Below are positions 9,467 to 26,027 of a DNA stretch of 30,833 bases, one piece after another; position 1 is the first letter of the stretch; each line of letters begins with the position of its first letter. The notes under the pieces are model-generated. The model was not told the DNA's origin. It did no database searches and saw only the letters and a program-made list of their open reading frames with translations. The position numbers and the translations under genes were made by a program. Origin of the DNA: a virus; IMG/VR virus record IMGVR_UViG_3300049596_000305, positions 1 through 30,833 of that record, one strand, 5' to 3'.

Positions 9467-11254
9467 TTAATTTGTTTTAGGTAAAAATCCCTTGTTTGGC
9501 ATATCTATCGGTCTTTGTGAAACTAAATTAGGGTTTTTAATAACGTAACCATATTGTTCAGCTTTTGCACCTGCTATCTGTCTTGCCTTTGGTGAATTAA
9601 CATCTATATTTACACCCTCAAAACTTGCGTAAACTTGTTTATTCCATCTATGGTGACAAGCACCACCGCCTTTATAAAGCCAAATTGAATAAGTATCTGC
9701 ACCTTTTGGACCCCAACCTTTATTTACTGCTTGTTCTGACATTCTAATAATATCCTCTTTACGATATATTTTACTTGCTTCTGACATTTTTTTGCAAAAC
9801 AATCTACTTTTATCGTTTGTAACTCCTGCATAAACATAACGTGTAATAAATCTAATACCATCAATGTTTTCATCTTGCTCACTTTTTGCGTTACCTCTTG
9901 CAGTTCCTGTACTTACAAAATTGTAAACTTTGCTTAATAAACTTTCTTTAGTTTCTTTAGCTAATATTTCGTTTTCTGCATCATCACCATCATAATCTAC
10001 TTCGCTTTCATCAATTAAAAGCCATTCAGCGTTTGCTGTTTCACCTAAATCAATTAAACTATTAGCTACATCGTTATCTAAATTATCTTCGCTTAAACAA
10101 CAAGTATGTGCAGATAATTGTGTTCCTGTTTCTTCTGCTACTTGCTCTGCTGATTGTGCATTTTCTAAATCTGTAAATTCTAAAGGCTGAATAGTTTTAA
10201 AATATAATTTTAACTTAATATTATTAACCGCTAAAATAATATCTAACGCTTCGATAATTTCTAATTGATAAGGTTTAATTACCAAGTTATCATATAACAA
10301 AGTAGCTGTTTTAATTTCATCTGCATTGTTACTAAAACCACCACCTGCATCACGAATACCTAAAAGCATTGGAGAAGTAACTCTATGCCCTACAACTAAT
10401 TTTTCAAAACACTCTTTAGATAAATATTCATAGTGTGCAGGTGCATCGTTTAAAGGAATATCATCTACAGTAGTTTTATTTTCTACCGAGCTGTTAAATC
10501 CTACAATTACTTTTTCACCTCTTGCACCTGTTAATTTTCTTTTAACCTCGTTTGCTATTTCTTCTCTTTTTTCTTCTGGTGGCACACCGTTATTAAAGTT
10601 TATAACTTTAGTACCACTAAAACCATTCATTACATCGTTAATCAAATAATCGCTTATTTCTTCTTCTAACTTTGCGTAAGGTAAAGCACCAGAATAATCA
10701 ATAGGAGTGTAATAATGATAACCACTAATATAAGGTTTGATAACGTAAATTTCAACTTCATTACGATTACCAAAACCAAAAGCAGGTATTCTTTTTAATT
10801 CATCACTTGGTTTTTTATTAGCCCAATCAGCGTGGTAAAACCATTCTTCAATTTCGCCTTTTGAATTACATTTACCTGCTCTTAAAGTATGCATTGGAAA
10901 ATGGTCTATAAATTTAACCTCTCCTTTTTCATAACCTACTTGCATAGCAGCCATACCTAATAGCTTACGCTCTAAACCTACTTTTCTTAAAGAGTTAGGT
11001 TTGATTATAGATATCATTTTAGCGTACTCGTCTGGCTTTTTATTTGCGTCTAATGCTGATAAACCTTTTCCGTAAATCATATTAGCCACACCTGTAATAA
11101 TAGCGTTGTTTGTTGTGCTATATAAATATCGGTGTATTAAATAATTAAAATAATTATTATCTGTACCGTATTCTACAAACTCACCTTTTTTACTTTCGTT
11201 TATTTGTGGTGAAGTATAAGCACTTAAATTTAAAATGTGAAACATATTATTCAA
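9467..11254 (-). CDS. Portal protein with C-terminal MuF-like extension
   Basis: A 595-aa protein. Residues 1 to about 400 look like a portal: NNAIITGVANMIYGKGLSAL, a mixed core, GFNSSVEN, and the long helix (ADEIKTATLLYDNLVIKPYQ...) that forms the portal stem. An acidic linker (420-460) leads to a second domain at about 470-550 with FITRYVYAG, SRLFCKKMSEASKIYRKEDI, WGPKGADTYSIWLYKGGGAC and HHRW. This Cys/His-bearing domain resembles the minor head (MuF-like) proteins usually encoded next to the portal. A fusion would put DNA channel and head factor in one chain. It overlaps the upstream gene by 8 nt. Confidence 0.75.
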   Translation of the reverse strand: MNNMFHILNLSAYTSPQINESKKGEFVEYGTDNNYFNYLIHRYLYSTTNNAIITGVANMIYGKGLSALDANKKPDEYAKMISIIKPNSLRKVGLERKLLGMAAMQVGYEKGEVKFIDHFPMHTLRAGKCNSKGEIEEWFYHADWANKKPSDELKRIPAFGFGNRNEVEIYVIKPYISGYHYYTPIDYSGALPYAKLEEEISDYLINDVMNGFSGTKVINFNNGVPPEEKREEIANEVKRKLTGARGEKVIVGFNSSVENKTTVDDIPLNDAPAHYEYLSKECFEKLVVGHRVTSPMLLGIRDAGGGFSNNADEIKTATLLYDNLVIKPYQLEIIEALDIILAVNNIKLKLYFKTIQPLEFTDLENAQSAEQVAEETGTQLSAHTCCLSEDNLDNDVANSLIDLGETANAEWLLIDESEVDYDGDDAENEILAKETKESLLSKVYNFVSTGTARGNAKSEQDENIDGIRFITRYVYAGVTNDKSRLFCKKMSEASKIYRKEDIIRMSEQAVNKGWGPKGADTYSIWLYKGGGACHHRWNKQVYASFEGVNIDVNSPKARQIAGAKAEQYGYVIKNPNLVSQRPIDMPNKGFLPKTN

Positions 11255-11576
11255 AAATTACGTATTCGTTTGTTGTTGGGTGTTGAGTATATTGGTCTTT
11301 GTTAATCGTATAATTTGCAATTATTTGATTAGTGCAAAAAACTTTATCTCTATAAACTACATCTGTACCATCTAATATAGTAAGAGTGTAATATTTATTT
11401 TCTTTAATTGGGAATATTGCAGAAGTTGCTACGAAATATCTATCTATTGAAAACGTGGAATTAATCTCTACTTCTACGTTAGTTTCCTCATCTCTCAATA
11501 CAATAGCATCAGCATTACTACCATAAATTACAGCGTTTAATGTTTGAGCAGTTGCTTGTTCTCTTAAGATTATCAT
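11247..11576 (-). CDS. Small structural protein upstream of portal
   Basis: A 109-aa beta-rich protein (LNAVIYGSNADAIVLRDEET, YYTLTILDGTDVVYRDKVFC) of unknown family. It is the first gene after a strong terminator and carries the GTTTTTAAATAAA element in its leader. It overlaps the portal gene by 8 nt. A head or head-tail joining role is suggested by place only. Confidence 0.5.
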   Translation of the reverse strand: MIILREQATAQTLNAVIYGSNADAIVLRDEETNVEVEINSTFSIDRYFVATSAIFPIKENKYYTLTILDGTDVVYRDKVFCTNQIIANYTINKDQYTQHPTTNEYVIFE

Positions 11577-11581
11577 ATTCT

Positions 11582-11594
11582 TTTATTTAAAAAC
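11582..11594 (-). promoter_or_regulatory. GTTTTTAAATAAA start-site element (copy 1)
   Basis: The minus-strand 13-mer GTTTTTAAATAAA ends 5 nt before the ATG of the 109-aa gene. Identical copies precede the starts near 13797, 15612 and 22967. The terminator just upstream (11627-11665) implies that transcription must restart here, so a late promoter is possible; a translation element is the alternative. Confidence 0.5.
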
Positions 11595-11626
11595 ACAAAA
11601 GTTCTGTTTTTGTTTCGACATATTAT

Positions 11627-11665
11627 AAAAAAAAAGCGAGAATTGTTTAAAATCTCGCTTTTTTT
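11627..11665. terminator. Strong bidirectional-looking terminator after tail tube gene
   Basis: GCGAGA (11636-11641) pairs with TCTCGC (11653-11658). A nine-A run and a seven-T run flank the stem and can extend it. It lies 17 nt past the tail tube stop codon. Confidence 0.85.
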
Positions 11666-11681
11666 ACATTAAAAAAATTTA

Positions 11682-12209
11682 TTAAGAACCAACTACTACT
11701 GTAAATCCTGCAGCAGTTAAAGTATCTCCAATAAAATTAGCAGGTACTTTTTCCATTCCTGTTAAAGATAAAGTATAACCAGATAAATCTCCCATTGCAC
11801 CACCTGTTACAATAGTACCACCTGTTACATCCATACCGTGTTGTAAACCTGCGTAAAAGAAATTACCGTTGTTATCCTCTATAATAACTTGAGGGCGACC
11901 GTAAGCCATTAATTTTAATTCTTTGTTGTCTTTAGGAGTTAATTTTTTAAATGTTAATTCCAAAACTTGCTCAAAAAACGTTGTTCCGTTCTCTCTTGAG
12001 CTGTTAATATTTTGAGTAAAGGTAGAAGCACCTTTTAACTCATATTTGTATGCAGATGGTGTACCAGCTACTGCATCGATTACATCAGTATTTGTAACAT
12101 CGTAAGTGTAACCTGTTGCATCTCCGTAATTAACGAAGTAAACATTTTTTAAACCACCTACGCTATCTTTACATACTTCTAATCTTCCTAAACTTAAATC
12201 ACAAGCCAT
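11682..12209 (-). CDS. Major tail tube protein
   Basis: A 175-aa protein beginning MACDLSLGRLEVCKDSVGGL. It has alternating strands typical of siphovirus tube subunits (KNVYFVNYGD, KYELKGASTFTQNINSSREN, FFEQVLELTFKKL) and a C-terminal GLQHGMDVTGGTIVTGGAM then LSLTGMEKVPANFI. The length and the STFTQ...E-x-G-T-x-F-F-E-Q pattern fit tail tube proteins of Bacteroidota siphoviruses. It is flanked by terminators on both sides, as is common for genes expressed at very high level. It sits directly after the capsid gene, unlike lambda, where tail genes follow the head block. Confidence 0.65.
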   Translation of the reverse strand: MACDLSLGRLEVCKDSVGGLKNVYFVNYGDATGYTYDVTNTDVIDAVAGTPSAYKYELKGASTFTQNINSSRENGTTFFEQVLELTFKKLTPKDNKELKLMAYGRPQVIIEDNNGNFFYAGLQHGMDVTGGTIVTGGAMGDLSGYTLSLTGMEKVPANFIGDTLTAAGFTVVVGS

Positions 12210-12231
12210 AGTGTATATTTTTTAAAAGTTA

Positions 12232-12265
12232 AAAAAAAAGGCGGTGTTTATTGCACCACCTTTTT
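12232..12265 (-). terminator. Terminator after major capsid gene
   Basis: GGTGGTG (12260-12254) pairs with CACCGCC (12246-12240) on the minus strand with one G-U pair and a 7-nt loop, inside A5/U9 flanks. It is fully paired only in the leftward direction. Confidence 0.85.
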
Positions 12266-12284
12266 ATAGTTATTTATTTATTAA

Positions 12285-13217
12285 TTATGCAGGAGTATAA
12301 AGTACGATTTCAGAACCGATACCGTATTGAACACCAGCTAAAAATCTCATTATTACTCTAACGTTTTGAGAACCATCGATATCTGACATATCAATTACTC
12401 TTACTTCGTTTAAGTCTGATAATAAAGAAGTACCAAAGTATAAGTTTGATTTTTCTGCAGCCATCATATAGTTAGAAGCTAATCCGTTTGCAACAAATAC
12501 TTTTACACCATCAAAAGATAATGAACCGTTGTTAAACCATTGTGTACCTTGTGAGTTAGTACCGTTAGCACCTAAACCAGAAGCAGCAAAACCACCTAAA
12601 GCTCTTACGTAAGCACGTGCAACGTTTTGAGAAACATAAATGTATAAATCTTCTTTTCCGTATAATGTAGCAGGAATAGCATCAACTACTTTACCCATTT
12701 CAGCAATTACGTTAGCAGCAGTTACAGTAGTACCAACTACATCAATAACTGTAGCATCAGCAGTAGCTAAAGGCACAAATCCGTTAAATTCTCCTGCGTT
12801 AGCAGTAGCACCTCTCCAAATGTTAGTTTCAGTTTTTTCAGCTACTTTAGCAGCAACGTGAGCGATTAAGAAATCAGCAAAAGTTTTAGGTAATGTATCA
12901 AAAGCTGATAAACCCATTTCCATACCTTGCCAAGTACTTCTGAAATCTTTAGCACAAAGCTCTAAATTTACTTGAAATTCTTCTGGTTGAATAATTCTTT
13001 CAGTTAAAGTAACTGTAGAAGTTGCGTCAAAAGCACAAGTTGCGTCTTTAACGATTGCATCAGTACCAACTCTTTGGATAACTGATTTGAATAAAATGTT
13101 TGGCATTACTTCAATTCCACCATTTTCGATAGTAGAAGCTGATAATAATGCTGCTGAAATGTATTTCTTTGAAAATTCACCAGCGTAAGTTGTTGTAATA
13201 CTTGTTGTAGTAGCCAT
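12285..13217 (-). CDS. Major capsid protein, HK97 fold
   Basis: A 310-aa protein placed between the scaffold and tail tube genes. It has the general makeup of HK97-fold capsids: a short N-arm (MATTTSITTTYAGEFSKKYI), an E-loop-like stretch (about 50-75), a long spine helix region (FADFLIAHVAAKVAEKTETN, about 112-131) and an A-domain (DLYIYVSQNVARAYVRALGG; GVKVFVANGL; FLAGVQYGIGSEIVLY). The codon use is slightly richer in G+C than neighbouring hypothetical genes, fitting high expression. A terminator follows. It is the main shell protein, 415 copies or more per virion if T=7. Confidence 0.8.
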   Translation of the reverse strand: MATTTSITTTYAGEFSKKYISAALLSASTIENGGIEVMPNILFKSVIQRVGTDAIVKDATCAFDATSTVTLTERIIQPEEFQVNLELCAKDFRSTWQGMEMGLSAFDTLPKTFADFLIAHVAAKVAEKTETNIWRGATANAGEFNGFVPLATADATVIDVVGTTVTAANVIAEMGKVVDAIPATLYGKEDLYIYVSQNVARAYVRALGGFAASGLGANGTNSQGTQWFNNGSLSFDGVKVFVANGLASNYMMAAEKSNLYFGTSLLSDLNEVRVIDMSDIDGSQNVRVIMRFLAGVQYGIGSEIVLYTPA

Positions 13218-13233
13218 TTTTTTTAATTAATTA

Positions 13234-13797
13234 TTAGTTTGCTATTTTGTTCATTACTCTGTCTAAAGTATTCATTCCTCTGTTTTGAGAAAAGTTTACT
13301 TTGTCTACGTTTGATTTTGCATCTGGGTTGTGTGTTAAAGGTTGAGCAGATAATTCTACTTCTTTTACCTCTACATTTTTCATAGATGCTAATTCAGTTT
13401 TTAATGTTTCGATTTCAGCTTTTAAAGCATCTACATCTTCTTGCGAAAAGTGAGATTCTTTAACTGTGCTTTCGATTACTTTTTTAGCAGTTGCTGGTGC
13501 TTGAGCTGCTTCAACCTCAACTTCTACTTCTGGTGTAGCTTCCTCTTCAGGTGCTTCAACTTCCATTTCTTTGATTTCTTTGATTTCGCCCTCAACCTCA
13601 ACTACTAAAATCATTCCGTTATCAAGAGTATACTCACCTACAGGTAATGCTACTCTATCTTCACCACTTACAATAAACACCGCTTGACCTGCTTCGAATA
13701 ATTCTGCTTCGATTAAAGTTCCGTTGTCTAATGCCATTTGCTCAAGTTTGATTTCCATACCAAGCAATTTTTTGATTTCTGTAATTACGTTTGACAT
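13234..13797 (-). CDS. Capsid scaffolding protein
   Basis: A 187-aa protein. The N-terminal part is a small beta domain (LDNGTLIEAELFEAGQAVFI, RVALPVGEYTLDNGMILVV). An acidic Glu/Ala/Pro-rich linker (about 75-105) follows, then a coiled coil (SQEDVDALKAEIETLKTELA, about 117-140) and a C-terminal tail (NTLDRVMNKIAN). This layout and the place directly before the capsid gene fit an internal scaffold that a prohead protease would later degrade. Its leader contains GTTTTTAAATAAA. A moron facing the opposite way lies upstream, so it probably needs its own promoter. Confidence 0.65.
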   Translation of the reverse strand: MSNVITEIKKLLGMEIKLEQMALDNGTLIEAELFEAGQAVFIVSGEDRVALPVGEYTLDNGMILVVEVEGEIKEIKEMEVEAPEEEATPEVEVEVEAAQAPATAKKVIESTVKESHFSQEDVDALKAEIETLKTELASMKNVEVKEVELSAQPLTHNPDAKSNVDKVNFSQNRGMNTLDRVMNKIAN

Positions 13798-13807
13798 ATT
13801 TATTAAA

Positions 13808-13820
13808 TTTATTTAAAAAC
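13808..13820 (-). promoter_or_regulatory. GTTTTTAAATAAA start-site element (copy 2)
   Basis: This copy ends 10 nt before the scaffold ATG. The opposite-facing gene pair and its terminator separate the scaffold from upstream late genes, which makes local initiation likely. No TAnnTTTG box is seen on this strand here. Confidence 0.5.
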
Positions 13821-13837
13821 AATATTATTTAATTGTT

Positions 13838-13868
13838 GTTGTATTTTTAAAAAATATTTGTATATTTG
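13838..13868 (+). promoter_or_regulatory. Bacteroidota-type promoter of the moron pair
   Basis: GTTG (13838-13841), 19 nt, then TATATTTG (13861-13868) on the plus strand. Transcription should start near 13874, 15 nt before the first moron ATG. It would be read by the host housekeeping sigma factor without phage factors. Confidence 0.8.
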
Positions 13869-13888
13869 TAAAACAAAAAAATATAATT

Positions 13889-14209
13889 ATGGAAAAAAAT
13901 ATTAAAGTTTTAGGTTTAAATTTTAAAGATGAAAATTATTTTAATTATTTATATTCAACTGATAATTGTTTTGTTGGTTACGTAAGTAAATTAACTAAAG
14001 AACAAAAAGAATTACTTAATGCTAAATTGATTTGGAAAAGAGAAAAATCAAAAGAAAGTCCTGTAGAAACTTTAGAAAAACAATTAGATAGTTATGCCGA
14101 CCATAATAAAGATAAGTTTGAAATGGAATGGGATTTTTTAAAACAATTAATTAAAGAAGCTAAACAACAAGAAAAAAAACACTATAAAAAAAGCACCAAT
14201 TTTTGTTAA
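13889..14209 (+). CDS. Moron protein A, unknown function
   Basis: A 106-aa, soluble, highly charged protein. The first half (MEKNIKVLGLNFKDENYFNY ... CFVGYVSKL) reads as a few strands and a helix. The second half (TLEKQLDSYADHNKDKFEME and following) is a long charged helix ending in a Lys-rich tail (KQQEKKHYKKSTNFC). No domain is recognised. It is one of only two plus-strand genes in the window, with its own host-type promoter, set between late head genes. That is the usual layout of a moron expressed outside the lytic programme. Candidate roles are host modification, superinfection exclusion or anti-defence; none can be chosen from the sequence. Confidence 0.65.
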   Translation: MEKNIKVLGLNFKDENYFNYLYSTDNCFVGYVSKLTKEQKELLNAKLIWKREKSKESPVETLEKQLDSYADHNKDKFEMEWDFLKQLIKEAKQQEKKHYKKSTNFC

Positions 14210-14229
14210 AACTTAAAAAAAATAATTTT

Positions 14230-14481
14230 ATGAAAAAAACAATTATGCAATATCTTTTAGATATAATAGAAACAAGATTAATGTTAAATAATGAAAAAAT
14301 AATTTATAATATAGATATTGATTATTTTTTAAATAAAGAACAAGAAGAAAAAGATATTTTTTCTTTAGAGTTTGCAAAATGGTATCATTCAGTTAATAAT
14401 AATGAATATCATTTATACCCTAATTCCAATATAGAAGAACATTTAAAAATATTTAAAAAAGAAAAAGGGTACTTATTATAG
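14230..14481 (+). CDS. Moron protein B, unknown function
   Basis: An 83-aa protein (MKKTIMQYLLDIIETRLMLN ... FAKWYHSVNNNEYHLYPN). The ATG at 14230 is chosen over a TTG at 14203: it follows an AT-rich leader (AAAAATAATTTT), whereas the TTG lies inside the end of gene A. The body is acidic and aromatic, with no recognised motif. The last codons (GYLL, stop) lie within the terminator hairpin. It is co-transcribed with gene A. The pairing of two small unrelated charged proteins leaves a toxin-antitoxin or inhibitor pair open, without direct support. Confidence 0.65.
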   Translation: MKKTIMQYLLDIIETRLMLNNEKIIYNIDIDYFLNKEQEEKDIFSLEFAKWYHSVNNNEYHLYPNSNIEEHLKIFKKEKGYLL

Positions 14482-14495
14482 TACCCTTAATTTTT
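14465..14495. terminator. Bidirectional terminator between moron and late genes
   Basis: AAGGGTAC (14465-14472) and GTACCCTT (14481-14488) form a perfect 8-bp stem with an 8-nt loop. T-rich tracts follow in both directions (TTAATTTTT on plus, T5 on minus). It ends the moron transcript and could stop leftward transcripts after 14494. Confidence 0.85.
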
Positions 14496-14835
14496 AAACT
14501 GATAACAATCTATTTATTATTGTATCAATAGCGTTTATATTGCCATTAACTTCTGATTTTGCCTTTTGTACTTTAGCTAACTCACTATCTAAACCTAAAT
14601 CTTTTATTAATCTTTCTGCTTTATCAAGTTCTTTAATTAATTCTCTATTTTTTTTTAAAGAAATATCAGCTAATTTTAAAGCTTGTGTTTTTAAATCTAA
14701 TGCTTTAATAACTTCTTTATTTGCTTCGGCTAAAGTTGCTTTTAAATCATCATATATTGTAGCTAATTCTATTTCGTGTTTACCTAATTCAGTTTTAAAT
14801 AATTTACTGAACATTTTTTTTTCGTTTGCTGTCAT
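14494..14835 (-). CDS. Coiled-coil late protein
   Basis: A 113-aa protein that is nearly all helix, with heptad-like patterning (ELATIYDDLKATLAEANKEV, LKKNRELIKELDKAERLIKD). It lies between the protease and scaffold genes and ends at the moron terminator. A minor scaffold, a protease partner or an assembly factor is plausible. No homology is recognised. Confidence 0.55.
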   Translation of the reverse strand: MTANEKKMFSKLFKTELGKHEIELATIYDDLKATLAEANKEVIKALDLKTQALKLADISLKKNRELIKELDKAERLIKDLGLDSELAKVQKAKSEVNGNINAIDTIINRLLSV

Positions 14836-14837
14836 TG

Positions 14838-15032
14838 TTATCCGTTTACTCTTGTTATTACTCTTACTCCGTTTGCTTCTGTAACTGTTACGCTATCTAC
14901 TCCGCTTGTTGTACCGATTGCTTGTTGGCTTAATTCACCTTTGCAACATTCTTTGCTGTATGTGTTATCATCACAAAGACAACCTTTTTTGCCACCTACA
15001 GGGCTTGTTCTACTTTTTGTTTTCTGACTCAT
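14838..15032 (-). CDS. Small Cys-rich head-module protein
   Basis: A 64-aa protein. The basic N-terminus (MSQKTKSRTSPVGGKKG) is followed by CLCDDNTYSKECCKGE (18-33, four cysteines) and a beta-like end (GVDSVTVTEANGVRVITRVN). The C-x-C...YS-x-x-CC pattern recurs, from memory, in Bacteroidota phages near the protease. It overlaps the protease gene by 23 nt. The function is unknown; a disulphide or metal-stabilised minor virion part is possible. Confidence 0.6.
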   Translation of the reverse strand: MSQKTKSRTSPVGGKKGCLCDDNTYSKECCKGELSQQAIGTTSGVDSVTVTEANGVRVITRVNG

Positions 15033-15612
15033 TGATTAACTTTTTAATTTGATTAATAATTTCTTCTTTTCTATTTTGTGTACTCAACTGCTTTTTTTCT
15101 TCTAATTTATCTGCAAAATATCCCTCTAATGAAAACCCTTTTACTTTACCTGTTTTAACGTAGTCATTCCAAATGCCATCATCCTCAACTTTAACAGAAG
15201 CCATCCAAGTACCTATAGGCACACTTAAATTATAAATAGCACTTTTATCTTTTTCAGTATTTTCAACAATCCAACTTTCAACTACGGTTAAACCTTTAAT
15301 TTCTTTTCCGTGTTCTAAAGTCCAATTGTTTTGATTGCCATTTTGAAAAAATAATTGACTTGCTTTATTTACCGTATCTTTTGAAAAGTAAATGTAATAT
15401 TCATCTTCTCCATTGCGTCTGTAAATTGGCTTCTCTGGTATTAAAACTGCACCCATTAAAATACGTTTTTCTGTATCTACTTGAGCAAGTTTAATTTCTT
15501 CAGCTTTTAACGCTACAAAGTTAGACTCAATAGCAGGAGTTTCTACTACACTAATTGCATCTACTCCGCTTAATACATCTTTATCGTCTATTATTAATTC
15601 TATTAAATTCAT
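15010..15612 (-). CDS. Prohead protease, XkdF-like (Peptidase S78_2)
   Basis: A 200-aa protein. The core is typical of the XkdF-like phage protease family: KRILMGAVLIPEKPIYR (49-65), EYYIYFSKDTV (71-81), NNWTLEHG with H101 as the likely catalytic His, LTVVESWIVE (108-117), and VKGFSLEGYF with S161 as the nucleophile. These serine proteases mature the prohead by cutting scaffold and capsid. The C-terminus is a Lys/Glu-rich helix that could interact with scaffold. It follows the tape measure gene and its leader contains GTTTTTAAATAAA, ending 5 nt before ATG. Confidence 0.85.
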   Translation of the reverse strand: MNLIELIIDDKDVLSGVDAISVVETPAIESNFVALKAEEIKLAQVDTEKRILMGAVLIPEKPIYRRNGEDEYYIYFSKDTVNKASQLFFQNGNQNNWTLEHGKEIKGLTVVESWIVENTEKDKSAIYNLSVPIGTWMASVKVEDDGIWNDYVKTGKVKGFSLEGYFADKLEEKKQLSTQNRKEEIINQIKKLINESENKK

Positions 15613-15617
15613 AGTAT

Positions 15618-15630
15618 TTTATTTAAAAAC
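15618..15630 (-). promoter_or_regulatory. GTTTTTAAATAAA start-site element (copy 3)
   Basis: The element ends 5 nt before the protease ATG, the same spacing as at the 11576 start and the second ATG of the 22973 gene. It lies in the 43-nt gap after the tape measure stop codon. No terminator is seen in this gap. Confidence 0.45.
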
Positions 15631-15655
15631 ATTAATTACTCTATTTTGTTATTTT

Positions 15656-17728
15656 TTATCCTATACTTGCGTTACTAATTATATTTCTATCTAACGCTTG
15701 TTGGCTTGTAACTTGGTTAGCAACTACAAACGCTTGAACAGGTTGTTGGCTTCCTAATGTAGTTGCTAATTGATTAACTCCACTATTACCTACAACGTTA
15801 AACTGTGGTGCAGCAGCAGGCATAGATGGTGCAGCACCACCGCCACCACCAACACTTGCAGAACCACCACCACTACTACCAGAAGCAGAAGCTGATTTTA
15901 TTTTAGCAATTTGTAAAGCACTAAACACTCCAGCTAAACCTGCTTGAACAATAGGGTAAGCAGGGAATAAAGCAGTAATAGGTGATTTTTGTGCAGTTGT
16001 ATATGCGTTTTGCACACCTTGAATACCACTTATAATAGTTTGTGCTATTGCTGCTGCCTTTCCTATTTTAGAACCTTTACCTGCAACTTCTTGAAGTAAA
16101 CTTAAACCTTGATTTGCAAAATCTGCTTTAGCATTAAATAATTGATTTTCTTTTTCAATTTCTTCATCTTTTAATTTTTTTCTGTCATCAGAATATTTCT
16201 TTTCAATAACAGCACGTTGTTCTTCGCTTAATGCTTTATCCTCTAATAATATTCGCTCTTGTTCGTTTAATGCTGTTCTCCTTGCTTCAAATGCTAATAG
16301 TTCATTATCAATTATTATTTGTTGTTGCTCTACTTTTTTATTTCTTTTTTCTTCTTCTATTGCATCTTCTGCTAATATAATTGCTTGGTCTATTTCTTGC
16401 TTCTTTAAAGCAAATTCACTTTCTGCATCTACTCTTGCTTGTGTTCCTGCATTTGCACCATCAATTACACTTTGTAAACGCTCTAACTCAATTATTTTAT
16501 TTTGTTCTAAAGCATTCTTTTTAGCTTGTAATTGTGCTTCTTCATTTTTAATACGTTCAGCATTAAAGTTAGCTTCATTAATTGCTAAAGTAGTTTCTGC
16601 TTCTTGTTTAGTTTTAGTTAAATCTATTAACTCTTTATTTAATGCTAAATCATTTGCTTTTTGTTCAGAACGTAAACCCTCAACTTGTGCTAAAACTCCC
16701 TCACGATTTGCTAAAGCATTTGTTAAAGCAACTTGGTTTTCAATATTATTATTTTGCGAAAGTGTAGATTGAGCCGCTGCTATTTGTGCTGCTGCTTGTG
16801 CTAACATAGCAGATTGCTGATTTTCTAAAACATCTTTTAATTGATTATTAGCTTTTATTCTATCTTCAACACTATTACGTTCTTCATCTCTAACTTGTCT
16901 TAATTTTTCTGCTTGTCTATCGTATTGCTCAACTAAACGTGCTTGATTTGCTTCTGCTAACTTTGCTGTGTTTTGTAAATTAACATTTGCCTTTGCTTGT
17001 TCGTATGCACTTGCAATAGATATTTTACTAACCCCATCAATAGTACCCTCTACAACTGCACCTACTTCGCTAATTGCTTTTCCAATATTATTACCTACTT
17101 GTTTACCAGCTTCTACTGCATCAGTTCCTACTTTCTTTAAACTTGCTTTTGTTTCATCTATTCGCTCTGTAAGTTTCTTAATAGTCTTTGCATCTTTGTC
17201 ACCAAAAATACTTTCTTCAAAAGCTAAACGTACTTCATCAATTACTAATTTAATTCCAAAGAATGCAGCTTTTAATGGTGTTAAACCTAACTTTAATAAA
17301 CCACCAACTACAGCTGTTAAACCCTCAAAACCTTTAGTTGCACCACCAACTTTTTCAATAACAGAAACTACTACATTTGTAATTTGACTAAATACATTTG
17401 AAACTGTACCTAATACAGCACTAAATACATCAGCAACTTTTTGATTACTTGTAAATATTTCTTTTAGCGTTGTCATTAAACTAATAACTAAACCAATACC
17501 CATAGCTTTTAACGCTACACCTGTTGCTTTAAACCCCTCGCTTAATGACTTTGTGCTTTTCTCTGTTTCTTTTACATTCTTATCTATATTGTCTAAAGAC
17601 TTTTTACCTGTCTTTGCAAAATCTTCTACAGAATTTTCTAACTTTACAACCGATTTGTTTAAGTCATTAATGTCTTTTTCTGCTGCGTTAGCATTTACAT
17701 CAATTTCTATTGTTTTTTTAATTGCCAT
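15656..17728 (-). CDS. Tail tape measure protein
   Basis: A 690-aa protein, one of the two longest here. It opens with a coiled coil (about 5-65, INDLNKSVVKLENSVEDFAK). Hydrophobic segments follow (about 68-90, MGIGLVISLMTTL; 140-165, AVVGGLLKLGLTPLKAAFFG), then long Ala/Gln/Glu-rich coiled coils (220-530), another small-residue hydrophobic region (550-605) and a Gly/Ser/Pro-rich stretch before a conserved-looking tail. This is the tape measure layout. At about 1.5 angstrom per residue it predicts a tail of roughly 100 nm, hence a siphovirus. It overlaps a 47-aa gene by 22 nt. Confidence 0.85.
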   Translation of the reverse strand: MAIKKTIEIDVNANAAEKDINDLNKSVVKLENSVEDFAKTGKKSLDNIDKNVKETEKSTKSLSEGFKATGVALKAMGIGLVISLMTTLKEIFTSNQKVADVFSAVLGTVSNVFSQITNVVVSVIEKVGGATKGFEGLTAVVGGLLKLGLTPLKAAFFGIKLVIDEVRLAFEESIFGDKDAKTIKKLTERIDETKASLKKVGTDAVEAGKQVGNNIGKAISEVGAVVEGTIDGVSKISIASAYEQAKANVNLQNTAKLAEANQARLVEQYDRQAEKLRQVRDEERNSVEDRIKANNQLKDVLENQQSAMLAQAAAQIAAAQSTLSQNNNIENQVALTNALANREGVLAQVEGLRSEQKANDLALNKELIDLTKTKQEAETTLAINEANFNAERIKNEEAQLQAKKNALEQNKIIELERLQSVIDGANAGTQARVDAESEFALKKQEIDQAIILAEDAIEEEKRNKKVEQQQIIIDNELLAFEARRTALNEQERILLEDKALSEEQRAVIEKKYSDDRKKLKDEEIEKENQLFNAKADFANQGLSLLQEVAGKGSKIGKAAAIAQTIISGIQGVQNAYTTAQKSPITALFPAYPIVQAGLAGVFSALQIAKIKSASASGSSGGGSASVGGGGGAAPSMPAAAPQFNVVGNSGVNQLATTLGSQQPVQAFVVANQVTSQQALDRNIISNASIG

Positions 17729-17850
17729 TTTATTGCTTTTTTAAGTTCGGTTAGTGTATCTGGTAATCTATATTTTCCTTTTGCAATATCTATTGCTTCG
17801 CTTGTTCCAAACTTTTGAAATTCAAGCATCTGTATTACTAATTTTAACAT
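17707..17850 (-). CDS. Small tail-operon protein before the tape measure
   Basis: A 47-aa basic protein (MLKLVIQMLEFQKFGTSEAI ... KKAIKWQLKKQ). It starts 1 nt after the 820-aa tail gene stop (TAATATG) and overlaps the tape measure start by 22 nt. The tight packing supports it. The motif LPDTLTELKKAIKWQ looks like a single amphipathic helix. Its role is unknown; a tape-measure chaperone is possible by place. Confidence 0.55.
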   Translation of the reverse strand: MLKLVIQMLEFQKFGTSEAIDIAKGKYRLPDTLTELKKAIKWQLKKQ

Positions 17851-17851
17851 A

Positions 17852-20314
17852 TTATCTCGCTTGTCTTATTACTATTATATCTCCTAAATTACTTTCTACA
17901 CTATATATTTTTTCAGCACCAGAAGTATTAGATTTTAAATCTAATTCTACGTAATCTTCGCCATTTATTATATCTATTATTTGCCCTGTTGGGTCATTTA
18001 AAATACTCCAACTTAAAGCTTCTCTACCTACTGTATTAATTCTAAATGGTCTTGCTATATTATCAATTTCAAAAATTAAAGAATTATTAAAGTTAATAGT
18101 TCTAAAATCTTGTATCAATTCAAACTTACTTTCAAACGTATCTAAATCCGTTGTAAAAGAATTTATAATATACCTTTTATCACGTATTACAATTCTGTCG
18201 TTTAAACGCAACGCTAATAGCTCTGAATAAGGCAAACGCATACTTACTTTAACCATTCTTGACTTCATAGAATATAAGTTATTCAAATAGTCAAAATAAT
18301 AATCTTTAAATAAAGTATTGTTAATAGTTTGTAAATTATAAGTGCTATACTCAATACCCCAATTTAAAGTATGTTGATTGTTTTGATATTTTACATCTTG
18401 CCCAAATACATTATAATTAGTTATATTGTTTGTAGTTGTACCATTATTAAAATAGAAATCACAAGCAGCGTTTTCGTATTGATATAAAATTATAGGTTTT
18501 GGTATGTACTTATTAAATTCTTTATTAAGCGAATAACCTACCTGTAAATTAGTTCCTGTAAATTTATTAAACATCAAATTTTCAAATGGTAATTGAATAG
18601 TATAATCAGCACCATCGTTATTAAATTGATAATCTAAATTACCATATTCTTTAGAATTATTATCATAATAATTTCTGTTTAAAAAACTTTCAGATTTTTG
18701 ATATTGAAAATTTACTTTTTTATATGGTTTAATTCTATCATACTCAAAATCTGTAACGCAATTTTCTGAAAAGTCTTTTATTTCTCCTTGATAATACCAA
18801 TTTTCTAACTGCTCTAAAGTATAATTTTCCTCATCAAAACTAAACGCTGTTAGGTTAAACATTTTTAAAATGCTACTAAAGAAATCAGCTACTTTAATAT
18901 CTGGCATAAAAGTTGGTAAATCTAAATCACCACTTGTTACACCACTACCTAAACCTATTGTAGATATTGTAGTTACAGTATTATTGTTTTCATCATACTC
19001 ATAAATATTACTAAAAATACCATTGTTAAAAGTAACTGCTAAAGTTGTACTTAAATACACTTTGTAAACTCCTTGCGTATTAGGTAAATAAACTTGTGCA
19101 GAAATTCCTGTGCCTGTTACATTAAATACAAAAGCATCATTATTAAAAACACTAACTATATAATTAGTAGCAGTTGAAAATGTTATCTCATATAAATTAG
19201 TAGCAATAAAATAAACTCCTGTAAGTGAATTAGAATTTAACTCATCTATAACAGCAGGGTTAATAGTAAAACTATCTGCATTTAAAGTAACATAGTTTTG
19301 GTCTACTGTATCTGGAGTGTATTGCATTAATACTTTAGTACTAAAAGGAATAAATGTATCTCTATTCTTTAACCACATATAAGCTTTTGTAAATCTACTT
19401 TGTGTTAAAAAGTTTCCGTTAAAACTTACTCCGTATTTATTCTCTATTGCATCAAATATACGTGCTATTTTTAAAGCAGGGAATAACTCGTTATAATGAA
19501 TGTGGTGTGAGTTTTGGCTTATATCATTTACACCACCACCGCCATACTGCCAAACTCTTTGGCTTGAAATTAAAGGAAATGCTAAATCAGTATCAGAAGT
19601 AGTTGTTACTTTAGTTTGTACATTTGCACCATTATAATTAATAGTGTAATCGTTTAACTCTGCAATATCTTTTAATTTATCTTCACCAAATTTATCACTT
19701 AAAGAAACTAAATTACCGTAAAAAGTAATCTTGTAATCTTCAATACGATTATCTTTAACCGTTGCACTTTCTAACTGCCATTTACCTGTTCTAAATACTT
19801 GCGTGTCAATTTCAATGTAACCGTTATATCTAAAGTTTTGATTAAAACCATTATCTAATGCGTTTTCGTACCAATGCCTAAAAATTTCGTTATTAGTATC
19901 ACTTGCAGGAATTGTGAAACTTTGACTATAATCGGTAAATACTTTTGATATATCATTAACATTTTGTATAGAAGAAGTAATACTAATTTTTTCATCGTTA
20001 AATAATTCTATGCGTCTAACAACATCTATTTCGGTTGGTGTAGGTGTAACTCCACCCAAATCATTTATTATATTTAGTAAGCAATTTTCTGCCTCAAAAG
20101 TACCACCATCTGTTTGCACTCTATTAGCAAAGTCGCTTATAGTATTTAAAGCAACACCAAAAACACCACCTAAAGAATTAATTTGATTTATTAAACAGGT
20201 ATTAGCTTCAAAAGTACCACCATCAGCAAGTACTCTATCTTTAAATTTGTTTGCAACTAAACTAACCGAGTCATCTATAACTTGTTTAGTGTATATGTAT
20301 AATGCTGTTTCCAT
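17852..20314 (-). CDS. Large tail/baseplate protein with N-terminal tandem DGGTFEA motifs
   Basis: An 820-aa protein. Its first 90 residues carry two copies of a 27-residue unit, (22-50) FKDRVLADGGTFEANTCLIN and (61-88) FANRVQTDGGTFEAENCLLN, each ending LGG. The main body starts near 98 (VVRRIELFNDEKISITSSIQ) and is beta-rich throughout; the region at 125-200 (DYSQSFTIPASDTN, FRTGKWQLESATV, YKITFYGNL) resembles a distal-tail or baseplate hub domain. No enzymatic motif is seen. It is coupled to the gene before it (shared base at 20314) and followed by the tape measure region. It is probably a tail tip or baseplate component. Confidence 0.6.
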   Translation of the reverse strand: METALYIYTKQVIDDSVSLVANKFKDRVLADGGTFEANTCLINQINSLGGVFGVALNTISDFANRVQTDGGTFEAENCLLNIINDLGGVTPTPTEIDVVRRIELFNDEKISITSSIQNVNDISKVFTDYSQSFTIPASDTNNEIFRHWYENALDNGFNQNFRYNGYIEIDTQVFRTGKWQLESATVKDNRIEDYKITFYGNLVSLSDKFGEDKLKDIAELNDYTINYNGANVQTKVTTTSDTDLAFPLISSQRVWQYGGGGVNDISQNSHHIHYNELFPALKIARIFDAIENKYGVSFNGNFLTQSRFTKAYMWLKNRDTFIPFSTKVLMQYTPDTVDQNYVTLNADSFTINPAVIDELNSNSLTGVYFIATNLYEITFSTATNYIVSVFNNDAFVFNVTGTGISAQVYLPNTQGVYKVYLSTTLAVTFNNGIFSNIYEYDENNNTVTTISTIGLGSGVTSGDLDLPTFMPDIKVADFFSSILKMFNLTAFSFDEENYTLEQLENWYYQGEIKDFSENCVTDFEYDRIKPYKKVNFQYQKSESFLNRNYYDNNSKEYGNLDYQFNNDGADYTIQLPFENLMFNKFTGTNLQVGYSLNKEFNKYIPKPIILYQYENAACDFYFNNGTTTNNITNYNVFGQDVKYQNNQHTLNWGIEYSTYNLQTINNTLFKDYYFDYLNNLYSMKSRMVKVSMRLPYSELLALRLNDRIVIRDKRYIINSFTTDLDTFESKFELIQDFRTINFNNSLIFEIDNIARPFRINTVGREALSWSILNDPTGQIIDIINGEDYVELDLKSNTSGAEKIYSVESNLGDIIVIRQAR

Positions 20315-21300
20315 TATATTACATCATTTATTAAGCCATAGTTAAACTCAAACTCTATTTCGTAATTAATGTTTTTATCTTTTAAATGTGTTTTGCGTTC
20401 CGAAGATTGGCTTTTTACTATTGCAGGTTTGTTATCCAATAGTACAACTTCGCTTAATAACAAATCTTGTATTAAGTCAAAATAATTTTCATCTACCCAA
20501 CCTGTGTTGCATTTAATCTTTTGTTTACCTTGTTGGTTAAACGTTCTTTTCTGCCCTTGTAAGACATTATAATTAACGCTGCTTGGTAATAGGTTAAACT
20601 CTTTATTTGTTGCCTCTATTGATTGTAAATTAGCTTTAAAGAATGTAAGATATTCCCAACCACCAAACCTATTAATAAACGTGCAAATAATTGGTGTATA
20701 TTTAGGTTCGCATAATTCCTCTGATTTAACAATAATACTTTCAATAACTGTAGTTTCTTCTGTTAGTGGTAATTTATAAAGTGATGGCTCTGTTACATCA
20801 ATATATCCGTAAGAAGTATCATAGTAACCAATTTCAAAAAATGCATTTATGTAATTACTTGTAAAATTTTTAACATACTTTTTTATATCAGCATTAAACA
20901 AAGGTACAATATTTGCTGTTTCTGAATTATTGTAGCCACCTGTATAATCTGTGTAACCATTTAAACAAACAAATGTTTCTGTAGATAACAAACTAAAAAC
21001 CCCTAACGTAAGTTCAGTATATCTTTTAACTACGCAATAAGCCCAATTTAAATCATTTTCTTCGGTAGGTACACTAACGTAAACAGGTGCAATAGGTTTG
21101 ATATATTCTTTTGCATAATTAGCAATGTTATAAATGTTTTCCGTTTGCGTTGGTGTTGGTGTTTTTTTACTTAAAGTATAAGTAGGTAAAATAGGCACAC
21201 CATTACTTTTATTATATAAATATAATTCTACTTTGCTACCTAATTGGTTTGCTTCATTTATCAGTATAAAATACGGACTTCTAACAAATATTTTTTTCAT
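20314..21300 (-). CDS. Tail structural protein
   Basis: A 328-aa beta-rich protein (MKKIFVRSPYFILINEANQL, YNIANYAKEYIKPIAPVYV). It has one middle part of tandem strands and a C-terminal region (INYEIEFEFNYGLINDV) ending in hydrophobic strands. Its start overlaps the upstream stop and its stop overlaps the next start by one base each (TAATG), so the three tail genes are translated in a chain. I think it is a tail or baseplate component of the type seen in Bacteroidota siphoviruses; no characterised family is recognised. Confidence 0.55.
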   Translation of the reverse strand: MKKIFVRSPYFILINEANQLGSKVELYLYNKSNGVPILPTYTLSKKTPTPTQTENIYNIANYAKEYIKPIAPVYVSVPTEENDLNWAYCVVKRYTELTLGVFSLLSTETFVCLNGYTDYTGGYNNSETANIVPLFNADIKKYVKNFTSNYINAFFEIGYYDTSYGYIDVTEPSLYKLPLTEETTVIESIIVKSEELCEPKYTPIICTFINRFGGWEYLTFFKANLQSIEATNKEFNLLPSSVNYNVLQGQKRTFNQQGKQKIKCNTGWVDENYFDLIQDLLLSEVVLLDNKPAIVKSQSSERKTHLKDKNINYEIEFEFNYGLINDVI

Positions 21301-21812
21301 TACTTTTTATTTATTGTATATTGTAAAAATTGTTCTAAATCTAAACCATAAGCTTCTACTAATTCATCTGGCAAACGCTCAAACGCTTTTTCAAATGGTT
21401 TGGTAAAAAACAAACTTGGCTTAATACCATTCTTTAAAATACCACCTGCAATTAAATAAGCTGTACTTTTATAACTCATAAATTTACCGCTCTCTTTATT
21501 CTTAAATTGAAACCTACGTTTAGTAACCCAATCTTGTATTGGTTTTAACGGTGGTCTTTTAGTTGTATAAGCAAATGGTGTATCGTATTTCTTTTTAGTT
21601 CCGCTAACTCCTTTGTCTTGAAACTCGCCATAGTTCTCCATTAAAAATGATAAACGAAAACTATTAGCACTAACTTCTATTTGACTATCTAAACTATTGT
21701 AAAGATTTTTGTTTACGTTCTTATTGCCTTTAGTTAAATTACTTCTGCTCTGCTGAATAACGTATTTAGCAAAGTCGTTTAAATACTTATATGTTTGTTC
21801 TGTGTTTTGCAT
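21300..21812 (-). CDS. HK97 gp10-like tail completion protein
   Basis: A 170-aa protein. A helical N-terminus (YKYLNDFAKYVIQQSRSNLT) precedes LRLSFLMENYGEFQDKGVSG, and then KPIQDWVTKRR and STAYLIAGGILKNGIKPSLF. The ME-Y-G-x-F-x-DKGVSG and G-I-K-P-x-x-F parts follow the gp10 (neck/tail completion) pattern, in which the protein joins tail and head. The following helix (PFEKAFERLPDELVEAYGLD) is usual for the family. It starts 1 nt after the upstream stop. Confidence 0.7.
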   Translation of the reverse strand: MQNTEQTYKYLNDFAKYVIQQSRSNLTKGNKNVNKNLYNSLDSQIEVSANSFRLSFLMENYGEFQDKGVSGTKKKYDTPFAYTTKRPPLKPIQDWVTKRRFQFKNKESGKFMSYKSTAYLIAGGILKNGIKPSLFFTKPFEKAFERLPDELVEAYGLDLEQFLQYTINKK

Positions 21813-22235
21813 TTAGCAAATAGTCATATCGTTTGCTACTAATACATCAAATGTAACAGCCCAACCTGCTAAATCGTTTTCAAACCTTTCTGTAAATGGT
21901 TCAAATGTAGGGTTACCTGTTAGCTCAAAATAATCATCTGCTAAATCACCTCTGTTTAATCTATCCATTATACGTACACCTAAAGCCATTTGTGTATTCC
22001 AAACATCTACTTTGTTACTCTCATCTTTTTGATTAAGTATATCCATTAAAAGTATAGTAATGTTAAACTGAATTACATTACTTAAATGCGTTGCACTATT
22101 AATAATAATATGTGACAAAGGAAACATTGTACGTTTAGATAAATCTACTTCAAATATATCGCCCTCTGTAACTGTATTTACAAAAGGTTCTTCTAATAAA
22201 GCAACTTTAATTTTATTTATAATATTATATACCAT
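21813..22235 (-). CDS. Tail terminator-like protein
   Basis: A 140-aa protein (MVYNIINKIKVALLEEPFVN). The mixed fold has FEVDLSKRTMFPLSHIIINS, then a long hydrophobic strand (NVIQFNITILLMDIL), WNTQMALGVRIMDRLNRGDL, and a final AGWAVTFDVLVANDMTIC. Length, order of elements, and position between the chaperone pair and the gp10-like protein suit a tail terminator or tail completion factor. It overlaps the frameshift ORF by 11 nt. Confidence 0.6.
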   Translation of the reverse strand: MVYNIINKIKVALLEEPFVNTVTEGDIFEVDLSKRTMFPLSHIIINSATHLSNVIQFNITILLMDILNQKDESNKVDVWNTQMALGVRIMDRLNRGDLADDYFELTGNPTFEPFTERFENDLAGWAVTFDVLVANDMTIC

Positions 22236-22494
22236 TACGTTTTAAATTTTTCATTTCTATTTCTGTTTTTTCTTTTTCAAATACTAACCACGTCATTAAT
22301 TGAGTGATGGGAAGTTTGGTAACTGCATCAAATCGTAGAATGTCGCCTTGAGCTGCTCCGTAGATTGATTGATACCAACCCCATTTTTTTCCAAAAGCTT
22401 CTTCGCTGTTTCCGAGTGCTCCAGTTCGCTGTGTATATAATCCATCAAACCGTTCACGCAATCGTTGGTTAAAGTCGAAAAAAAAACCAAGCAA
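22225..22494 (-). CDS. Tail assembly chaperone, T part read by -1 frameshift
   Basis: An open frame in the -1 phase relative to the gene at 22973-22296, overlapping it by about 200 nt. It has no ATG near its 5' end, only a TTG at 22494. Its protein (FNQRLRERFDGLYTQRTGAL, FGKKWGWYQSIYGAAQGDIL, FDAVTKLPITQLMTWLVFEK) contains the W-x-x-Y...GD...LP pattern of T-type chaperone ends. Ribosomes are expected to enter it at the T9 run (22486-22478), giving a fusion of 249 residues if translation starts at 22973 (165 from the first frame plus 84). It should bind the tape measure in assembly. Confidence 0.75.
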   Translation of the reverse strand: MLGFFFDFNQRLRERFDGLYTQRTGALGNSEEAFGKKWGWYQSIYGAAQGDILRFDAVTKLPITQLMTWLVFEKEKTEIEMKNLKRNGI

Positions 22495-22973
22495 CCTAAA
22501 ACTACATCTAAAGGCATATATTGTAAAAACTCTGCATAGACTTCTGACGATTGATATTCCTCTATTGTATATAAATCCTTAACTTTTGTTTTTATTGGTC
22601 TAAAAAGCACCGCCATAGCTTTGTGGTAAGTTGCTACATCGCTTAAATAGTTTTCTAAATCGATATACTCGCCAGAAGTCATATCTTCTAACTTTGGTAT
22701 AAACCCAAACTCGTAATCGCCTAACTTAAATGTTCTTATTAATTTTGGCTTTTTATTTAATAGACTACCTAAATGTTCTAACAATTCATCTGTATCAGCT
22801 AACCTAATACGTGCAACATCTTTTAAATCTATATTACAAAATATCTCAATAGTTTTTTGATTAACAAATTCACTCGGTTCGTTATCCTTAACTAACTTAT
22901 CAAACTTTTGATATTGCTTAAGGTGAATTTCGTTTAGCGTTTCTGGTATTTTAATATCTATTTTCATATTCAT
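22296..22973 (-). CDS. Tail assembly chaperone, G part
   Basis: A 225-aa protein (223 if started at the second ATG, 22967). It begins IDIKIPETLNEIHLKQYQKF, the usual start of Bacteroidota tail assembly chaperones. It ends in a helical region overlapped by the T frame. The product keeps the long tape measure soluble in assembly and is not part of the virion. The second ATG (22967) has the same 6-nt spacing to the TTTAAATAA core as the protease and 109-aa genes, so it may be the true start. It is the first gene of the tail block and lies behind a hairpin terminator. In lambda the G/GT pair sits directly before the tape measure; here four other tail genes and a 47-aa gene lie between. Confidence 0.75.
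   Translation of the reverse strand: MNMKIDIKIPETLNEIHLKQYQKFDKLVKDNEPSEFVNQKTIEIFCNIDLKDVARIRLADTDELLEHLGSLLNKKPKLIRTFKLGDYEFGFIPKLEDMTSGEYIDLENYLSDVATYHKAMAVLFRPIKTKVKDLYTIEEYQSSEVYAEFLQYMPLDVVLGCLVFFSTLTNDCVNGLMDYIHSELEHSETAKKLLEKNGVGINQSTEQLKATFYDLMQLPNFPSLN
22478..22486 (-). other. Slippery site for -1 ribosomal frameshift
   Basis: On the minus strand the 0-frame codons are GTT TTT TTT TCG. The heptamer T TTT TTT allows both tRNAs to slip back one base; translation then continues TTC GAC TTT in the T frame. The run has nine T. No strong downstream pseudoknot was identified by eye. Confidence 0.7.
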
Positions 22974-22985
22974 TTATTTAAAAAC
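22973..22985 (-). promoter_or_regulatory. GTTTTTAAATAAA start-site element (copy 4)
   Basis: The element touches the first ATG of the chaperone gene and lies 6 nt (after TTTAAATAA) before the second. It follows the terminator-like hairpin at 23012-23047, so transcription may restart here. Confidence 0.5.
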
Positions 22986-23011
22986 ATTAAAGTTGGTTTT
23001 TTGTATAAAGT

Positions 23012-23047
23012 AAAAAAAAACTAGTTAATTCGGATATATTCCGAATT
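23012..23047 (-). terminator. Hairpin terminator after the terminase block
   Basis: AATTCGGA (23027-23034) and TCCGAATT (23040-23047) form a perfect 8-bp stem around TATAT. Leftward, six bases then nine U (23020-23012) follow. The gap between stem and U-run makes it weaker than the others here. Confidence 0.6.
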
Positions 23048-24692: not shown

Positions 24693-25079
24693 TTAAACAA
24701 TAGTTGCGTTATACACTTGTTGTAATTCTCTTATCATATCTCTCCAACAACTTCCGCAGCTTGTACTTTGAAAGTTAATATTAAATACTTCTTTGTAGAT
24801 TGTTCTTAAACGCTCTTGTAGTTTAATTGTTAATTGGTCTGGTTGGTTTGGTAAGAAGTCTTTTAAAAACGCTATGCTATCTTCTGACAAACAATTTAGC
24901 GTTTTGTTTTCTGTGCTTCTGTAACTCCATAACTTATTAAGCGTTTCTTTTCTATCCTCACAACCGCAAGGTATACCTGTTACTTCGCTTATCTTATCTA
25001 CTACTGCTTTAATTCCTGTTGCTGTGGTAATCTGTTCTATTGTATCACCTAACCCTTTTGCTTTTCTACCTCTTGCCAT
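24693..25079 (-). CDS. Conserved Cys-containing phage protein before terminase
   Basis: A 128-aa protein. The N-terminus is basic (MARGRKAKGLGDTIEQITTA). The center contains VTGIPCGCEDRKETLNKLWS (34-53), and the C-terminal part has STSCGSCWRDMIRELQQVY (105-123). The four cysteines could bind zinc. Proteins with IPCGCxxRKExLN occur in many Bacteroidota phages just before the terminase, to my recollection, without known function. DNA binding linked to packaging is a guess from place. Confidence 0.6.
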   Translation of the reverse strand: MARGRKAKGLGDTIEQITTATGIKAVVDKISEVTGIPCGCEDRKETLNKLWSYRSTENKTLNCLSEDSIAFLKDFLPNQPDQLTIKLQERLRTIYKEVFNINFQSTSCGSCWRDMIRELQQVYNATIV

Positions 25080-25467: not shown

Positions 25468-25956
25468 TTATTTTAAATTATTATAATCTTCTTGAAATAA
25501 CTCCCTTAACTTTTTCTTATGCCCTTTTAGTGAGTGGAATATACTTACAAAACTTATACCTGTTTCTTTGGCTAACTTTCTTATTGATAAATCGCTATCT
25601 CTGTAAATTGTAAATAGTTTTTTATCGTACATATCCCAGCTATTAACTTCGGCTTCGCATTTAGTTCTAAAGTTATACCACTCAATTTCATACTGCTCAT
25701 CAAAATCAGTTTCTTGTGCTTGGTCTACAAAATCTACAATTACAAATTTATTATAAAAGTGCTTTATAAAAACACTACGTATTACAATAAAAATATATCC
25801 TTTATTTAAATTATCACCTGTAAAGCATTTTTCTTCACTTGAGTATAGGTGTAACTTAATATAAGTTTCTTGCACTATGTCCTCATAGTTTACTTTATCA
25901 AATATCTTTGCATATTCAATTAATTGCTTGTGGTGTTTGTATAACTTTTCTAACAT
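25468..25956 (-). CDS. Phage sigma-70-like factor
   Basis: A 162-aa protein in the size range of ECF sigma factors. Residues 5-40 carry NYEDIVQETYIKLHLYSS, the sigma region 2 helix (ED-I-V-Q-E-T). Residues 104-153 hold a region 4-like helix-turn-helix (DKKLFTIYRDSDLSIRKLAK, ETGISFVSIFHSLKGHKKKL). The region between them is poorly conserved in appearance. It should redirect host RNA polymerase to phage promoters. It lies just before the terminase and late genes, the usual place for a late switch factor. An imperfect inverted repeat (25960-26013) covers its leader, suggesting control of its own expression. Confidence 0.65.
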   Translation of the reverse strand: MLEKLYKHHKQLIEYAKIFDKVNYEDIVQETYIKLHLYSSEEKCFTGDNLNKGYIFIVIRSVFIKHFYNKFVIVDFVDQAQETDFDEQYEIEWYNFRTKCEAEVNSWDMYDKKLFTIYRDSDLSIRKLAKETGISFVSIFHSLKGHKKKLRELFQEDYNNLK

Positions 25957-25959
25957 TAC

Positions 25960-26013: not shown

Positions 26014-26027
26014 ATAAAGTTATTAAC

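Follow-up and report, generated by a model that had tools for sequence, protein, structure and literature searches.

A predicted two-box late promoter and a candidate phage ECF-type sigma factor in a lineage of Bacteroidota phages

The gp55-dependent late promoters of phage T4 consist only of a -10-like TATAAATA element and have no -35 box. Extracytoplasmic function (ECF) sigma factors typically read an AAC -35 box, to which the usual promoter form adds a CGT-type -10 box. In the phages phiEco32, SU10 and 7-11, an ECF-like phage sigma (gp36) switches on middle and late promoters, and the motif published for this group is a single tAATGTATAtA element 6-8 nucleotides (nt) upstream of the start (PMC4281155, PMC4331800, PMC7881722). 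The late promoters of phage AR9, AACA-N6-TA/G, are served by a phage-encoded multisubunit polymerase and give leaders of 26-491 nt (PMC5312081). Among the Bacteroidota, the housekeeping promoter of Flavobacterium reads TTTG / TAnnTTTG, and in Flavobacterium johnsoniae leaders exceed 10 nt in 87% of the transcripts for which a promoter is probable, the average being 33 nt (PMC6847099). Here we analyse a repeated element located before structural genes in a stretch of viral DNA of 30,833 bases (IMG/VR record IMGVR_UViG_3300049596_000305, hereafter the window), which has 29% GC and carries most of its coding on the minus strand. Its predicted genes, encoding terminase, portal, head-protease, tail and lysis functions, identify it as a tailed-phage genome or a large fragment of one. 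We consider it probable that the element is a two-box late promoter read by the host polymerase with a phage ECF-type sigma.

The core of the element is the exact 13-mer GTTTTTAAATAAA, present in four copies in the window, all on the minus (coding) strand (11582-11594, 13808-13820, 15618-15630 and 22973-22985), with none on the plus strand. Each copy is followed after 5-10 nt by a conserved structural-gene start. The exact search thus confirmed the coordinates and coding-strand placement reported in a preliminary description of this sequence, whose spacings to ATG, counted from the motif's core (6, 6 and 11 nt, with 6 nt again when the second ATG, at 22967, is taken), are also correct. This second ATG is the conserved start behind the copy at 22973, and we take it as the true one because relatives have ATGAAAATAGAT there and several of them lack the first ATG. 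Markov simulations (orders 2-4) expect 0.09-0.14 copies of the 13-mer per window, against the four observed; apart from its own one-base-shifted overlap, no other 13-mer reaches four copies in the window, and 0-6% of the simulations contain any 13-mer that does. All four copies fall in the 25 nt preceding a gene start, positions that make up 3.6% of the window (P ~2e-6), so that the motif is not equally frequent away from late gene starts. Degenerate searches were uninformative in this genome of 29% GC: the 13-mer with up to two mismatches matches 22 times in the window versus 22.5 expected, which hides the signal, and the TTTAAATAA core alone 11 times versus 7.8. A generic sigma-70 scan of the window was uninformative as well (101 found versus 92.8 expected).

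The 13-mer is almost certainly the downstream half of a larger element. In the window, [A/T]ACAA lies exactly 20 nt upstream of it, a second half overlooked in the preliminary description, and the full sequence, [A/T]ACAA-N15-GTTTTTAAATAAA, is very probably a two-box late promoter. The motif search in related genomes proposed there found the element kept, together with this upstream box, before the same genes. In 80 related loci gathered from viral contigs with a portal query, a 12-mer of the motif has a strand ratio of 29:1 in favour of the coding strand, with an AACAA box at a constant upstream position. The element was then measured in 31 phage genomes, namely the window and 30 retrieved relatives, mostly near full length. 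In 55 of the 56 coding-strand 13-mers, [A/T]ACA[A/G] occurs at exactly -20 and an open reading frame (ORF) starts 18-24 nt downstream; the sole exceptional copy, in a distant relative, resembles coding sequence. The two-box pattern shows a strand ratio of 56:0, and ACAA is rare at other spacings from the 13-mer. Genomes of the window's clade normally have four sites, and the four genes that follow them are the same in every case. On its own, AACAA shows hardly any enrichment in the interval 36-44 nt ahead of gene starts (6.8 versus 5.4 per position); the specificity resides in the combination of the two boxes only. The second box varies across clades and is common to the sites of one genome: agreement is 0.89 between sites within a genome versus 0.82 when the same site is compared across genomes, with 0.44 and 0.44 for the spacer, descriptive averages that include close relatives and carry no test. 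Agreement within one genome is the pattern expected from one trans-acting reader per phage.

The candidate reader is encoded on the minus strand at 25468-25956, a gene present in every relative examined save one 23.6-kb fragment and thus co-conserved with the element. Its 162-amino-acid product is predicted to be an ECF-type sigma factor with sigma2 and sigma4 domains, an assignment supported by hidden Markov models (HMMs) in homologues, an AlphaFold model, structural matching and conservation. In the homologues, AEDIVQETYIKL forms a stretch resembling region 2.2 and region 4 has a helix-turn-helix; 20 out of 20 match the NCBIfam models Sig70_bacteroi1 (TIGR02985, best 6.5e-13) and sigma70-ECF (TIGR02937, best 1.2e-8). 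In the AlphaFold model, with a mean predicted local distance difference test score of 85.5, the helices form N- and C-terminal domains with a linker of low confidence (71-77) between them, corresponding to the ECF architecture of sigma2 and sigma4 only, in less than about 200 amino acids and without regions 1.1 and 3. Over its full length this model matches ECF sigmas best, and residues 91-159 superpose on region 4 of Escherichia coli sigma-E bound to -35 DNA (2h27; 1.7 Å over 69 residues, Z 9.6), a correspondence of fold only. As modelled, the protein is a two-domain ECF-type sigma whose region 4 fold fits -35 recognition, which bears out the sigma-like factor announced in the preliminary description. 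Relatives of this sigma were found neither in genome contigs by single-sequence patterns nor in phage records by tblastn. Two observations concern its immediate surroundings. The leader of the sigma gene (25957-26030, minus strand) holds an inverted repeat, ATGTTACA...TGTAACAT, kept in at least five close relatives, possibly an operator or an RNA hairpin controlling sigma. Just downstream of the sigma gene, 24693-25079 encodes a Cys-rich protein (CGC...CGSC) that is conserved in 31 of 32 genomes; it is a possible zinc-binding co-factor or anti-sigma, and the gene of its counterpart in Nonlabens phage P12024L bears a late-type promoter.

P12024L and P12024S (Inhavirus), the only isolates recovered by the portal query, have head genes related to those of the window (portal 36% identical, capsid-type protein 37%). 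P12024L contains seven AACAA-N14/15-CGTTA sites, every one of them on the coding strand. They precede genes 01, 05, 08, 37, 42, 45 and 46, and at all seven the ATG comes 31-32 nt after AACAA. The isolate shares the two-box late element with the window and differs from it by its second box, CGTTAATA, and by a locked distance to ATG. Its genome includes a divergent sigma-70 region 2 gene, reached via its annotation, at a map position similar to that of the window's sigma. This geometry would put the start of transcription at the ATG itself or right beside it, and the late mRNAs of P12024L are accordingly predicted to be leaderless (~0-2 nt). No reports of P12024L promoters were found in the literature searched. 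Another phage, Cellulophaga phage phi46:1, a weak capsid relative, has no annotated sigma in its record.

The element of the window likewise combines an AAC-type -35 box with a second box at fixed spacing, as in ECF-dependent promoters, and the phage sigma quite probably reads it. The alternative that survives best also takes the element as a two-box promoter but assigns its recognition to a host sigma, or to the host polymerase with some other phage activator, the ECF-type sigma having a different function. Sigma and promoter are indeed paired by co-occurrence only, and other conserved early proteins exist that might serve, such as the Cys-rich protein just mentioned. Nevertheless, in 295 genomes of the class to which a Bacteroidota metagenome-assembled genome carrying a relative belongs, the two-box pattern is at chance level (6 occurrences versus 5 for the reversed control), and the three forward-strand copies in these genomes have no ATG at the right distance. 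The element is also unlike the Bacteroidota housekeeping TTTG/TAnnTTTG signal, and no coding-strand TAnnTTTG, as a sigma-A promoter would have, is present at the four late sites. The AAC box, by contrast, suits an ECF region 4, which the phage protein has, and P12024L shows this combination as well, although both its second box and its sigma have diverged. We consider this alternative of a host sigma or another activator decidedly unlikely. Host-type signals do occur elsewhere in the window: a predicted TTG-N19-TATATTTG promoter (5762-5791, minus strand) precedes the presumed early gene at 5736, and TAnnTTTG boxes at 3156 and 1758 precede the genes at 3117 and 1722, all three genes lying outside the structural block. 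From these sequences, the genome appears to use two promoter classes, a host type for presumed early genes and a phage type for structural genes.

Four late units begin with the element, at 22967, 15612, 13797 and 11576, and all four predicted promoters are on the minus strand. Late promoter 1 (22973-23005; TACAA box 23005-23001, 13-mer 22985-22973; position weight matrix (PWM) score 31.2), whose orthologous sites are conserved, precedes the gene at 22296-22967, the first in a unit reaching through the tape-measure gene. Late promoter 2 (15618-15650; AACAA box 15650-15646, 13-mer 15630-15618; PWM score 33.0) precedes a head-protease-like gene (15010-15612) with a PHROG head maturation protease hit. 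Late promoter 3 (13808-13840; AACAA box 13840-13836, 13-mer 13820-13808; PWM score 33.6) would serve the gene at 13234-13797 and then a conserved 310-amino-acid capsid-type gene (12285-13217), and late promoter 4 (11582-11614; AACAA box 11614-11610, 13-mer 11594-11582; PWM score 29.3) the gene at 11247-11576 and the portal gene (9467-11254). This last site is the most widely conserved, being present in more than 50 related loci. Directly before it lies a predicted intrinsic terminator (11629-11665, minus strand), a stem-loop with a T-run (-15.8 kcal/mol, z -4.25), and in relatives, too, the promoter before gene 11247 commonly has a terminator adjoining it. A terminator-like stem-loop with a T-run (23012-23047, minus strand; scan and fold, z -3.46) lies directly before late promoter 1. 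Three copies had originally been placed just after a terminator, which holds for those at 11582 and 22973. The one at 13808 is preceded at ~650 nt by a bidirectional terminator-like hairpin (14465-14488, minus strand), separated from it by an opposite-strand cassette, and at 15618 the preceding gene lies within 43 nt with no terminator between.

These positions bear on the idea, raised in the preliminary description, that the motif is an A/U-rich leader enhancing translation by ribosomes in a phylum without Shine-Dalgarno sequences, the true promoter being elsewhere. Such a function would agree with the constant location of the element just before the start codon and with the finding that initiation in F. 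johnsoniae is promoted by A-rich context, most of all by A at -3 (PMC6847099). However, the distance between the boxes is held at exactly 20 nt while that from the upstream box to the ATG spans a range of 8 nt (36-44 nt in the 31 genomes; 31-32 nt in P12024L); in this measurement two sites of one relative (G008) were wrongly anchored at an overlapping ACAACAA, which affects those rows alone. A signal for translation would be expected at a constant distance from the ATG, whereas fixed spacing between boxes is what -35 and -10 elements show. Moreover, only the first genes of a few units have the element in front of them, most genes having none, and two copies are directly behind terminators, with no host-type promoter between terminator and start. 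A translation leader is thus very unlikely. An operator bound by a dimeric protein, overlapping a promoter that escaped recognition, is an extremely unlikely reading of the element, since the loose inverted repeat of the window's clade (AACA-N15-TGTT) has no TGTT arm in P12024L or in distant clades, which read TATT, although both keep the ACAA box and the spacing, and the orientation relative to the gene never flips; with its second arm not conserved, the palindrome was rejected.

In our proposal the two-box element would be recognised by the core RNA polymerase of the host together with the phage ECF-type sigma, region 4 of sigma reading the ACAA box and region 2 the GTTTTTAAATA box. Transcription of the four late units would start there, in two cases directly behind a terminator. 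Made earlier in infection, the sigma would switch on the structural genes, other genes using the host TAnnTTTG promoter. Transcripts would be expected to begin around the final As of the 13-mer or some few bases beyond them, which leaves leaders of ~0-12 nt. A late leader of at most 12 nt is very probable, and the nearly leaderless mRNAs imagined in the preliminary description find support in the predicted geometry as very short leaders. Such leaders would be unusual, given that those of F. johnsoniae are mostly longer than 10 nt.

Several points weigh against this proposal. For the window's clade a leader of exactly zero is not predicted, and the length varies with the bases taken as the -10: about 4-12 nt by the P12024L geometry and ~0-6 nt if TTTAAATA is the -10. 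Strictly leaderless late mRNAs are rather doubtful in this clade. The window's own sigma copy scores below the curated HMM cut-offs (TIGR02985 5.5e-5; TIGR02937 4.9e-4), and the predicted template modelling score of its AlphaFold model, 0.43, makes the orientation of the domains uncertain. Among the relatives we found no genome with sites but without sigma, or the reverse, and shared ancestry alone could therefore give the co-occurrence on which the pairing rests. Finally, a search of the window's clade for a site before the TerS/TerL genes found none. In distant relatives (L077, L051 and others, G010-G020), a fifth copy of the element precedes the terminase genes, and the gap between it and the ATG is wider than at the other four sites.

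Other features deserve mention. A shorter form of the motif had been described before an HNH gene, but it was rejected as a real element: it has no upstream box and the gene is sporadic, with relatives in only 7 of the 32 genomes by blastp, window included. This form is very likely a coincidence of AT-rich sequence. The gene itself (8362-8904), for a NUMOD4-HNH homing-type endonuclease, is situated between tail genes. The cassette between two late units (13839-14488) contains two plus-strand ORFs (13889-14209 and 14203-14481), neither with a PHROG hit, and has its own predicted host-type promoter, TTG-N19-TATATTTG, in addition to the bidirectional terminator-like hairpin. A relative of the capsid gene (59% identity) occurs in a contig labelled Woesearchaeota archaeon (L204, CP070803.1), probably a mis-binned Bacteroidota phage or prophage.

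We found no definition of a Bacteroidota-phage late promoter with a candidate phage sigma in the full-text literature searched, which most subscription papers lie outside, and a literature search for ECF sigmas and phage late genes in Bacteroidota gave nothing relevant. Phage ECF-like late sigmas are already known; the novelty lies in a promoter and a sigma in a phage group for which the literature searched described neither. Tentatively, and with somewhat less than an even chance of being right, a widespread lineage of aquatic Bacteroidota phages may use an ECF sigma, probably host-derived, as late-gene switch, with the promoter flush with the start codon and late mRNAs leaderless or nearly so. 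If true, initiation of late proteins would differ from that on the mostly leadered host mRNAs, coupling a switch in transcription to a switch in translation. The analysis yields a promoter definition, a candidate factor and an isolate, P12024L, with seven predicted sites, the transcript starts being predicted to a precision of a few bases. Near-leaderless translation could be studied here in a phylum that makes no use of Shine-Dalgarno sequences, and second boxes specific to each clade open the co-evolution of sigma and promoter to testing.

Compared with known systems, the AR9 late promoters also have an AACA element before late genes but a single short one, read by a phage polymerase, and the resemblance is at most convergent. 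The Bacteroidota housekeeping promoter (PMC6847099) would share the host polymerase with the late element and occurs elsewhere in the phage, not at the late sites. T4-type late promoters (TATAAATA; gp55/gp33/gp45) are similar in having an AT-rich -10-like element before late genes and a phage sigma-like protein. The T4 likeness first drawn from a TAAATA core is not supported, since the core here is TTTAAATA, with a near-invariant upstream box at fixed distance and a sigma whose ECF region 4 fits a -35. No PHROG hit to the gp55/gp33 co-activator or the gp45 clamp appeared among the proteins scanned, which were part of the ORFs of a possibly incomplete window. What stands of the preliminary late-promoter reading is a promoter element of structural genes and a phage sigma, without the T4 kinship. 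The closest parallel is the phiEco32 group, in which a phage ECF-type sigma likewise redirects the host polymerase to a few promoters before structural genes. The sequence upstream of the four starts is, however, GTTTTTAAATAAA, with no AATGTATA, and the system described here differs by its two boxes at fixed spacing, its Bacteroidota host range and its near-leaderless geometry.

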